Shown one piece after another: positions 53,327-55,572 of a DNA stretch of 64,000 bases. The notes below the pieces were generated by a model. It did no database searches, had not been told where the DNA came from, and saw only the letters and a list, made by a program, of their open reading frames with translations. The position numbers and the translations under genes are program-made. The stretch comes from Kribbella monticola (GTDB lineage Bacteria; Actinomycetota; Actinomycetes; Propionibacteriales; Kribbellaceae). The first letter of the stretch is position 1; each line of letters opens with the position of its first letter. Where the stretch lies: the NCBI RefSeq assembly GCF_003261635.1, contig NZ_QFXK01000029.1, positions 310,001 to 374,000 on the forward strand, in the 5' to 3' direction.

Positions 53327-54043
53327 CTACAGATGCGCCGCAGCAACTCCGCGGTACTTGTAGCCCAGCTTCTCGTAGAGCGAGATCGCCGCTGCGTTGT
53401 AGCCGTGGACCATCAGGCCGGCCTGTCCGTGCCGTTTGACCAGCTCAGCCGTGGCGAACGCGCACACCTGCCGGGACAATCCCCGTCCTCGCGCCGACGG
53501 CTTGGTCCCAACCCCGGCCAGGAATCCGATCTCCGGCGCACTCCACGCGTCGGCCGCGATACTCAGCAACTCCCCGGTCTCGGAGGTCACCCCGGCCCAC
53601 CTCTGTACGCCGGGTCGCCCAGGCCAGGCATACGAGTCAGGCGAGGCTTCCGCCAGCAACTCCTCGACCCCGGCATCGGTGTCCAGCCAGGTCGCCGTCG
53701 TCACCTCCGCAGGAGCGACGGTGGTGTGCATCCAGCCGAAGGCCGCCGCGAAGTTGAGCCCTGGCACCCGATCGGCCAACTGCCGGATCAGCGCCTCGTC
53801 CCCGAACACCCGCAGACCGGCGTCGTCGCTCAGCACTTGGGCGACCAGGCCGGCCAGATCTTCCACCGGCCCGTACACAGCCAGCCGGTCGTGCATCGAC
53901 AACTGCGGCGACGCCACGGCGACCGCGTCCCCGGCGGACCAGGCGCGAACGCGGCCTCCGAGCCGGCCTTGTGCACACCAAACGATCATCGGGTCCTCGT
54001 CGGCAATCCGCGCCAGCTCCGCGGTTGTTGAAACTTCACGCAC
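53327..54043 (-). CDS. GNAT family N-acetyltransferase
   Basis: A 238-residue protein with a C-terminal GNAT domain: EIGFLAGVGTKPSARGRGLSRQVCAFATAELVKRHG is the acetyl-CoA loop and GYNAAAISLYEKLGYKYRG the final strand-helix. The N-terminal half (1-120) resembles a degenerate second lobe seen in FR47-type proteins. GTG at 54043 lies 6 nt after a TAAGCT -10 box (54055-54050), so a leaderless promoter is likely inside the end of the upstream gene. Substrate unknown. Confidence 0.82.
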   Translation of the reverse strand: MREVSTTAELARIADEDPMIVWCAQGRLGGRVRAWSAGDAVAVASPQLSMHDRLAVYGPVEDLAGLVAQVLSDDAGLRVFGDEALIRQLADRVPGLNFAAAFGWMHTTVAPAEVTTATWLDTDAGVEELLAEASPDSYAWPGRPGVQRWAGVTSETGELLSIAADAWSAPEIGFLAGVGTKPSARGRGLSRQVCAFATAELVKRHGQAGLMVHGYNAAAISLYEKLGYKYRGVAAAHL

Positions 54044-54052
54044 CGCGCCAGC

Positions 54053-55075
54053 TTAGACGGGCTTGCGCAGACCGACCGCGCCCGCCGGCGCCTCGCCGTC
54101 CGACGTGAGCGTGTAACCGTTCTTCTGGTAGAAGGCGATGTTCCTCTCGCTGCGAGCTCCGGTGAACAAGGCGATGGCAGTGACGCCTGCGGGCGCCTGG
54201 CTCTCGGCGTACGCGAGCAGGCGGCGGCCGAGTCCGCTGTGCCGCTGGTCGGGGGCAACCATCAGCCGCCCGATGTGCCAACTGTCGCCGTCGAGCTTCG
54301 CCCGCACCGAGCCGACGAGCCGCCCGCCGACCCGGACACACCAGGTCGTCCACTCCCGCAACCCGGCCCGTACTTCGTGTTCGGACTCCAGCAGGGCACC
54401 AAGCTCGAGGGTGTCGTTGGCCAGCGCCTCATCGACCCAGCAGCATCGCTGCAGCACCAGCAACTCGGCCGCATCGGCCGACACCGCCGGAACGATCTCC
54501 TGATCAGCCCGATACAGCGGACGCAGTACGTCGGCCACGTGGTCCAACTCGGTCAGCGCCTCCTGGGCGCGCGCTGCCAGCCGCTCGGTCTCGATCATCT
54601 TGCCGTCGCTGAAGGTCTCGGCGATCCGCAGAAAGATGTCTCCGCCGATCGACAGCATCCGCAGCGAGGTCGCGACACCACGAGCCATCTGTACGCCGCG
54701 CGTGCCGGCCGAGGTGTTGCCGTACCCGATGAACAGGCAGGGCTTCCAGGCCCACTCCTCACTCAGGTAGTCGAAGGCGTTCTTCAGCGTCGCGGGCATC
54801 GCGAAGTTGTACTCGCTGGTGACGAACACCAGCGCGTCTGCGCCGCCGACCAGGCGGCTCCAGGCTTTCGTGTGCTCGTGCAGGTAGATCCCGGTCGACG
54901 GATGCTCCGGCTCGTCCAGGAACGGCAGCCCGACCTCGGCCAGGTCGGCCACCTCGACCTCGACGCCGAGCTCCGCCGCCGTACCGGCTGTGGCGCCGAC
55001 GAACCAGTCGGCCACCGCGGGTCCGAGCCGGCCAGGTCGGGTGCTGGCGACCACCACGAGAATTTTCTTTGACAT
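54053..55075 (-). CDS. NADPH-dependent FMN reductase fused to GNAT acetyltransferase
   Basis: A 340-residue fusion. Residues 1-180: flavodoxin-fold reductase with ILVVVASTRPGRLGPAVADWF (FMN phosphate loop) and VFVTSEYNFAMPATLKNAFDYLS. Residues ~200-340: GNAT domain with GRLMVAPDQRHSGLGRRLLAYAES and NIAFYQKNGYTL. ATG at 55075 is chosen because a promoter (-35 TTGACA, -10 TACGCT) ends 7 nt before it, giving a leaderless mRNA; an upstream ATG at 55105 lies in the -35 region. Divergent MarR gene and paired palindromes indicate MarR control. Both halves may act on one toxic compound (inference). Confidence 0.87.
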   Translation of the reverse strand: MSKKILVVVASTRPGRLGPAVADWFVGATAGTAAELGVEVEVADLAEVGLPFLDEPEHPSTGIYLHEHTKAWSRLVGGADALVFVTSEYNFAMPATLKNAFDYLSEEWAWKPCLFIGYGNTSAGTRGVQMARGVATSLRMLSIGGDIFLRIAETFSDGKMIETERLAARAQEALTELDHVADVLRPLYRADQEIVPAVSADAAELLVLQRCCWVDEALANDTLELGALLESEHEVRAGLREWTTWCVRVGGRLVGSVRAKLDGDSWHIGRLMVAPDQRHSGLGRRLLAYAESQAPAGVTAIALFTGARSERNIAFYQKNGYTLTSDGEAPAGAVGLRKPV

Positions 55076-55083
55076 GTCAAAGA
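55066..55083. promoter_or_regulatory. MarR operator box 1, over the reductase start codon
   Basis: TCTTTGACATGTCAAAGA is a perfect 18-bp palindrome. The reductase-GNAT start codon (55075-55073) is at its centre. It shares its core with box 2, 30 bp away. Confidence 0.8.
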
Positions 55084-55094
55084 GCGTAGCGCTG

Positions 55095-55114
55095 TTCTTT
55101 GACATGTCAAAGAA
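55095..55114. promoter_or_regulatory. MarR operator box 2, over the reductase -35 element
   Basis: TTCTTTGACATGTCAAAGAA is a perfect 20-bp palindrome. Its minus-strand TTGACA (55110-55105) acts as -35 for the reductase promoter, whose -10 TACGCT is at 55088-55083. Centres of the two boxes are 30 bp apart, about three helical turns. Confidence 0.8.
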
Positions 55115-55128
55115 GTAGGATCGCCGGC

Positions 55129-55572
55129 ATGACGCGATGGCTGGCGGCCGATGAAGAGCGGGCCTGGCGGGCGATCCGGCGGCTGATCACCGTGCTGCCC
55201 TCGCGGCTGGCCCGGGACCTGAACCAGCTCGGCCTGTCGACTGCCGACTACGAAGTCCTCAGCACGCTGTCGGAGAAGCCGGGCCGGCGCTGGGGACTGA
55301 AGGACTTCGCGGAAAAGATGCAGTGGTCACGCAGCAGGCTGTCCCACCACGCGGCCCGGATGGAGTCCCGCGGGCTGATCGAGCGCGAGCCCGACCCGGC
55401 CGACGCCCGCGGCTCGATCTACCACCTGACCGACGCCGGCTTCGAGGTCCTCGCGCAGGCGGCTCCCGGACATCTGGATTCGGTCCGCGAACGGTTCATC
55501 GACCACCTCAGCCCTGAGGAACTGGCCGTCCTGGAGCGAGTGGCCACGCGGATCGCGGACCTACCCGACTAG
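55129..55572 (+). CDS. MarR family transcriptional regulator
   Basis: A 147-residue MarR regulator: GLSTADYEVLSTLSEKPGRRWGLKDFAEKMQWSRSRLSHHAARMESRGLIEREPDPADARGSIYHLTDAGFEVL holds the winged helix with the DARGS wing. ATG at 55129 with TAGGA 8 nt upstream; the in-frame ATG at 55099 region lies in the operator. Divergent from the reductase-GNAT gene through two identical palindromes. The gene end overlaps the convergent SnoaL-like gene by 12 bp. Confidence 0.9.
   Translation: MTRWLAADEERAWRAIRRLITVLPSRLARDLNQLGLSTADYEVLSTLSEKPGRRWGLKDFAEKMQWSRSRLSHHAARMESRGLIEREPDPADARGSIYHLTDAGFEVLAQAAPGHLDSVRERFIDHLSPEELAVLERVATRIADLPD

Follow-up and report, generated by a model that had tools for sequence, protein, structure and literature searches.

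Can one palindrome be repressor binding site, promoter element, transcription start and start codon all at once? The question is raised by a divergent gene pair of Kribbella monticola, whose genome comprises 8,025,353 bp (~8.0 Mb) in 90 contigs and of which we analysed a stretch of 64,000 nucleotides (the window). Here marR, whose product has a MarR winged-helix domain (Pfam PF12802, E 5e-11; PF01047, E 1.1e-9), and a gene encoding a fusion of an FMN reductase and a GNAT acetyltransferase are oriented divergently, and two palindromes (boxes 1 and 2) lie between these two genes. A second GNAT gene begins 9 nt downstream of the fusion gene and probably shares its operon, and at the far end of marR its 3' end overlaps that of a minus-strand SnoaL-like gene by 12 bp (55561-55572). 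The features are listed in Table 1.

Table 1. Features of the marR/reductase-GNAT locus (positions are those of the window).
Feature	Position	Strand	Basis
Second GNAT gene (FR47-like)	53327..54043	-	Pfam, ORF list
FMN reductase (PF03358)-GNAT acetyltransferase fusion gene, 340 aa, MSKKILVVVASTRPG...	54053..55075	-	Pfam
ATG start codon of the reductase-GNAT gene, predicted leaderless transcription start	55073..55075	-	class A comparison
Box 1, 18-bp perfect palindrome, presumed MarR operator	55066..55083	.	sequence
Predicted -10 hexamer for the reductase-GNAT gene, TACGCT (of the form TANNNT), with the ATG 7 nt downstream	55083..55088	-	class A comparison
Box 2, 20-bp perfect palindrome, presumed MarR operator	55095..55114	.	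sequence
Predicted -35 hexamer for the reductase-GNAT gene, TTGACA, with a spacer of 16 bp	55105..55110	-	sequence; class A+B comparison
Candidate marR -10 element TAGGAT, 7 nt before ATG; resembles a Shine-Dalgarno sequence too	55116..55121	+	class A comparison
marR, MarR-family repressor gene, 147 aa	55129..55572	+	Pfam MarR; nearest solved relatives 3zmd, 3zpl

The first-pass annotation had described two boxes with a common core 30 bp apart, and this is borne out in the sequence. The 16-bp core CTTTGACATGTCAAAG is present in two copies in the window (55067-55082 and 55097-55112; axes 30 bp apart), and these are still the only two when up to three mismatches are allowed; shuffled sequence gave a mean of 0.04 occurrences, and two copies were seen in 0 of 100 shuffles. 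In the whole genome the exact 14-mer TTTGACATGTCAAA is found at these two places only, that is, an exact search for a wider regulon returned no site beyond the two boxes. At two or fewer mismatches there are three extra genome places (one with one mismatch and two with two), and a reversed control pattern gave one. The place with one mismatch looks like the start of what we assume to be an RbpA-like gene and is taken as a chance match. Palindromes of 16–20 bp thus adjoin both marR and its divergent neighbour, as for autoregulatory MarR operators, but two further features set the question: the box-1 axis (55074/55075) is the site of the reductase start codon, and the outer arm of box 2 is the predicted -35 hexamer of the reductase gene.

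The intergenic region was compared in relatives. MarR orthologues of 84–97% identity occur in 11 genomes, including this one, among the 38 of the genus that were searched; together with one Actinocatenispora locus and L055, from a genome of the same order, they make up class A (n = 13). Wider searches covered overlapping sets of 391, 394, 249 and 200 genomes (order, class and two families), of which 14, 9, 18 and 14, respectively, had a match at E 1e-42 or 1e-44, and a plasmid search gave seven records with a match, of which H1-H3 were taken in. The 52 parsed marR loci fall into 13 of class A, 33 of class B and 6 others. Outside these counts stand the Kribbella paralogues of ~45% identity (L016-L034; 4 of 19 are in the tree below), L048, four of the seven plasmid matches, L042-L047 (read by eye; 5 of 6 in the tree) and the duplicate copies L035-L040 and L049-L054. 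The classes were defined by the start-on-axis feature and placed on the tree afterwards, the locus counts treat related sequences as if independent, and the start-picking script behind the TANNNT distances and codon counts demanded TANNNT, so that the 100% figures given below are partly by construction; the box-first reading of the reductase side and the dyad ranking are free of this picking bias.

On the minus strand, TTGACA (55110-55105) is followed after 16 bp by TACGCT (55088-55083) and after a further 7 nt by ATG (55075-55073) and the codons TCA AAG AAA, which are the outer arm of box 1. As far as its letters go, this is how an actinobacterial leaderless promoter is laid out. In Mycobacterium tuberculosis, the accessible part of the published analysis places TANNNT, centred 7–12 bp upstream, at 73% of primary starts (PMC3898074). 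In class A an ATG or GTG lies on the box-1 axis in 13/13 loci, this one included, and the twin boxes are 30–32 bp apart in all 13. A TANNNT ending 6–8 nt before ATG/GTG, the mark of actinobacterial leaderless genes, is present on the reductase side in all 13 loci, exactly 7 nt upstream of the start in every one and as 10 different hexamers; counted from the A of the reductase start, T-13, A-12 and T-8 do not vary in any of the 13 loci, and positions -11 to -9 are free. When the loci were read outward from the boxes, with no promoter required, a box-1-axis start with TANNNT at 7 nt was found in 12/12 class A loci. The -35 hexamer in box 2 is TTGACA (10) or TTGACG (3) in class A, with a spacer of 16–18 bp; over classes A and B together it is TTGACA (42) or TTGACG (3) with the same spacer range in 45/45 loci scored (L062 was not scored). 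It had been proposed from this single locus that box 2 supplies an exact TTGACA to the reductase-GNAT gene, that TACGCT between the boxes is its -10 and that the transcript would begin at the ATG forming the centre of box 1. The hexamers and the centred ATG are in the sequence, and the comparison of relatives, in which axis start, TANNNT and box-2 -35 are kept in 13/13 class A loci, supports all three proposals; the reductase transcript is most likely leaderless, with its start at 55075. The same source had the operator encode FDMSKK-like residues, of which MSKK stands; FD lies upstream of the start and would be untranslated if the mRNA is leaderless.

Several class A loci vary in detail. In the Actinocatenispora locus the box is the start of a lone GNAT protein (MSKN...), the reductase domain being absent there. 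The reductase starts with GTG in L007 and L008, where both boxes share the same axis change (ACACGT), and here the two boxes seem to evolve together. By eye, the outer arms of class A half-sites seem less changed than the inner ones.

The dyad can also be measured around the starts themselves. The mean number of paired positions out of 10 is 8.3 for class A reductase starts, 7.6 for class B reductase starts and 5.9 for class B marR starts; class A marR starts, which lie outside the boxes, average 3.1, and shuffled means are 3.0–4.0. Ranking by dyad symmetry and nothing else puts a start with TANNNT at the top on the divergent side in 9/13 class A and 31/33 class B loci, and on the marR side in 13/13 (A, mostly with a single candidate) and 32/33 (B). 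The class B misses are L062 and L070 (start beyond the scanned stretch) on the divergent side and L090 on the marR side. For comparison, the 52 loci contain 10,234 ATG/GTG triplets, among them the true starts, and of these 67 are preceded by TANNNT at 7 nt and 61 at 6 nt.

The four class A misses are all an in-frame ATG at box 2, behind which the box-1 start ranks second, and they bear on a different reading of the gene, namely that the reductase starts at the in-frame ATG on the box-2 axis (55105), giving a protein of 350 aa (MSKNSATLFDMSKK...) whose promoter would lie inside marR. The frame from this ATG is open in this genome and gives a longer ORF, and the triplet is the top dyad start in L005, L006, L013 and L014, this locus among them. 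It is, however, not listed as a start candidate in the other 9 of the 13 loci: a spacing of 31 or 32 shifts its frame in L007, L008, L011, L012, L041 and L055, and it is lost in L009 and L010 (GATATG). Even the four loci that keep it have no TANNNT 6–8 nt before it, whereas the box-1 start has one throughout the class. We rejected this start as unconserved in class A and regard the reading as most improbable.

The marR side is arranged differently in class A. Its start lies 21–27 nt past the box-2 axis, and a TANNNT stands 5–7 nt before the marR ATG/GTG in 13/13 loci, TAGGAT in eight and a hexamer without AGGA in the other five. Because those five hexamers keep TANNNT without AGGA, the TAGGAT of this locus is by its sequence more likely a -10 element than a ribosome site, although both may overlap. 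A marR mRNA with a leader, in which AGGA (55117-55120) would be the ribosome site and box 1 the -35, draws on the Shine-Dalgarno-like GTAGGATCGCCGGCATG 8 nt before the ATG and on TAGGAT being the hexamer in 8/13 loci. AGGA was set aside as the marR ribosome site, being missing from the hexamer in 5/13 class A loci, although L055, among these five, carries GAGGGG just upstream; and no TANNNT occurs in this locus 15–20 bp past the box-1 TTGACA, from which the candidate -10 is 41 bp away. We therefore think a leadered marR unlikely, while granting it some weight. The best -35-like hexamer 15–20 bp upstream of TAGGAT here is TGTTCT, with 2/6 letters, and the same scan over class A gave best hexamers of 2–5 of 6 letters that are unconserved. 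The earlier suggestion that box 1 supplies TTGACA as the -35 of marR thus fails in this genome, where the distance is too great; something close to it does occur in class B (TTGACA in 25/32, TTGTCA in 5/32). On the plus strand, box 2 itself reads ATG TCA AAG AAG TAG (55104-55118; MSKK and a stop), the TAG opening the marR -10; this may be a relic of a class B marR start or simply box sequence.

In the 33 loci of class B both genes would, with one exception, take their start from a box. The marR gene begins with ATG TCA on the box-2 axis with TANNNT exactly 6 nt upstream in 33/33, and the reductase start lies in box 1 in 32/33, with TANNNT 7 nt (26) or 8 nt (6) upstream; in these 32 loci 30 or 31 nt lie between the two start As. 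Box 2 provides an exact TTGACA for the reductase in 32/32 loci scored (spacer 18 in 31 and 17 in one), and box 1 provides the marR -35 hexamers just given at a spacer of 19–20 bp. With this long spacer and an inexact -35 in some loci, the marR promoter may be the weaker of the two. For L066, on a plasmid of Streptomyces sp. NBC_00184, the existing annotation gives the two starts as 2440 (-) and 2471 (+), which coincide exactly with the box axes. The exception on the reductase side, L062, comes from a small genome (2.7 Mb) of another family; it retains the class B unit but has a stop as reductase codon 2 (ATG TGA near 1442); a candidate scan found no divergent start there, and the gene may be decaying or be started otherwise. 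The class B operator arms are, as we read them, the codons for the first residues of two unrelated proteins, and the arrangement appears to occur in relatives from several actinobacterial families. The dyads of class B are imperfect: box-1 pairs 3 and 4 are paired in 17 and 13 of 33 distinct class A and B sequences, and class B box-2 pairs 4, 6, 8 and 10 in 2, 10, 0 and 1 of 29. In L089, box 1 has 9/10 pairs over the start, fuller than most relatives, with both arms changed (ATG GAA ACT AAA), which suggests compensatory change.

It might still be that the boxes are ordinary operators, one of which holds a start codon by accident, with promoters and leader elsewhere. MarR operators do often overlap promoters, but an accident would have to recur, since axis starts are found for the reductase-side genes in 13/13 class A and 32/33 class B loci and for marR in 33/33 class B loci (counts within classes sorted by that feature), with TANNNT at a near-fixed distance, and in the 33 class B loci there is no other divergent start candidate with TANNNT. 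Leaderless genes are, moreover, common in actinobacteria, 33% of Corynebacterium glutamicum transcripts being leaderless according to the accessible text of PMC5401885. Accident is in our judgement very unlikely. Codon 2 is TCA in 38/45 reductase-side genes and in 33/33 class B marR genes, against 42/1,053 Ser codons elsewhere, and codon 4 is AAA in 37/45 reductase-side genes, against 41/280 Lys codons elsewhere. The two unrelated proteins have N-termini of the kind MS[K/T]K in common, and the codon bias near the start points to conservation of DNA rather than of protein.

Classes A and B come out as sister groups in a tree built from 61 MarR proteins (quick method; SH-aLRT support 98 for the two together, 98 for B and 94 for A), so the reductase start in box 1 is probably ancestral to both. 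Outside them, L093 and L094 pair a related marR with another kind of divergent protein, whose start falls on a box axis and has TANNNT at 7 nt; in L093 this is a luciferase-like monooxygenase (PF00296), which the L094 protein resembles by eye. In L057 a box axis carries a GTG that lacks TANNNT at 6–8 nt, and the start scan did not find the arrangement in L065, L067 and L068.

Which protein occupies the boxes can be approached through its solved relatives. The nearest of these are 3zmd and 3zpl (E 9e-29 and 1e-27), the latter presumably the SCO3205-DNA complex. In what is accessible of PMC3737563, 3zmd is AbsC, in which a Trp/His pair holds salicylate, and Arg72, Ser73 and His77 of SCO3205 contact bases. 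These three match R68, S69 and H73 of the Kribbella protein (residues matched by hand in the printed alignment), and the ligand residues Trp16 and His119 (SCO3205 numbering) match W13 and H115; all five are invariant in the 12 orthologues aligned. The operator consensus given for SCO3205, TTnAAnnnTCAA, resembles TTGACATGTCAA in part, the ends fitting and one place having C for A. MarR is accordingly presumed, by analogy, to bind both boxes. That another regulator binds them instead is a thought prompted by the MarR paralogues in the genome (seven matches at E 1e-15 or better, this protein included), but the exact box occurs in the genome only beside this marR, boxes with a start on an axis accompany 46 of the 52 parsed marR loci (sorted by that same feature), and the DNA-contact residues are those of the nearest DNA-bound relative; we hold it to be highly improbable. 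Given a salicylate-type pocket in the MarR presumed to control them, the reductase and acetyltransferases may act by reduction and N-acetylation of a toxic aromatic.

The sequence anatomy and its conservation are observed, whereas start sites, MarR binding, ligand and enzyme role are predicted; on this footing it is in our view quite likely that the locus is a compact autoregulated switch built on leaderless transcription. MarR dimers would sit on both palindromes, about three helical turns (30–32 bp) apart. The dimer on box 1 would cover the transcription start, the start codon and the first codons of the reductase-GNAT gene, and that on box 2 the reductase -35 and the stretch just upstream of the marR -10, and together they would turn the reductase operon off and dampen marR. 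Once MarR is released by its ligand, which may be an aromatic acid or a toxic aromatic of a related kind, RNA polymerase would use the TTGACA of box 2 with TACGCT and start at the A of the ATG at 55075, giving an mRNA without leader. With the start codon placed on the axis, the arm of the operator would double as codons 2–4 (TCA AAG AAA) and dictate the N-terminus MSKK. In class B, marR would be built likewise on box 2, so that two leaderless promoters overlap head to head; these could hardly be used at once, and most likely MarR blocks both until ligand binds. With less confidence, we lean towards a broader joint reading in which this is a reusable module: a single palindrome would serve its own gene as operator, site of transcription initiation, start codon and opening codons, its outer arm would supply the -35 of the gene facing it, and in the sister clade two facing modules 30 bp apart would form a mutually exclusive two-way leaderless switch in which the operator dictates the N-termini of two unrelated proteins. 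Genes of at least three types would lie behind such a module, encoding a reductase-GNAT fusion, a GNAT by itself and a luciferase-like monooxygenase.

If true, this is a limit case of regulatory compaction, with operator, promoter, transcription start, start codon and N-terminus in one 20-bp unit and a very small bidirectional regulated promoter (~50 bp). A DNA-binding protein would determine which codons are used (TCA and AAA, both infrequent in these genes), leaderless translation and repressor binding could not evolve apart, and the locus would offer a clear test of two polymerases sharing fully overlapping leaderless promoters. In the accessible portions of the open-access literature we came across no account of an operator axis that carries a start codon, or of two such starts facing each other, and no description of this arrangement for a MarR/FMN reductase/GNAT pair; among the 20 of 21 papers listed for the motif letters, none was relevant.

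The closest known system is the streptomycete MarR group of SCO3205, AbsC and SCO7727, which, like the locus here, has two operators between divergent genes, the same three base-contact residues and the same Trp/His pair. The operators of SCO3205 are found 21 and 36 nt ahead of the genes, whereas here the operator axis is the start codon, and the divergent partner there is dioxygenase-like, here a reductase-GNAT; the available text describes no start codon on an operator axis (all PMC3737563). As its operators are on start codons and not upstream as published for SCO3205, we file the Kribbella system as a relative of SCO3205/AbsC and not as a member of that operator arrangement.

The separate ingredients are known already from papers accessible in part: leaderless repressor operons, divergent leaderless repressor genes and repressor sites in coding sequence. 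The acuR system of Rhodobacter (PMC3017554) and nreA of Mesorhizobium (PMC12724321) both have a leaderless mRNA, mapped by 5'-RACE, under their own repressor. The acuR operator overlaps the promoter, as here, and that of nreA is in the -35/-10 spacer, but neither is on the start codon, and both systems run in a single direction under TetR and CsoR/RcnR family proteins, in contrast to the divergent MarR system described here. In phage PY54, cI and cro are, as predicted for class B, divergent genes that are both leaderless and start at the AUG; there, one 16-bp palindromic operator lies upstream of cI, the protein family is different and the operator is not described, in the text available, as a start codon (PMC4488713). 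The controller protein of the Kpn2I restriction-modification system, again of a different family, has its site mostly inside coding sequence just past the start codon and, like the boxes here, overlapping the -35 of another promoter of its system; there, however, the repressor acts as an elongation roadblock, and the start codon is a TTG that the accessible text does not describe as the operator axis (PMC6237814).
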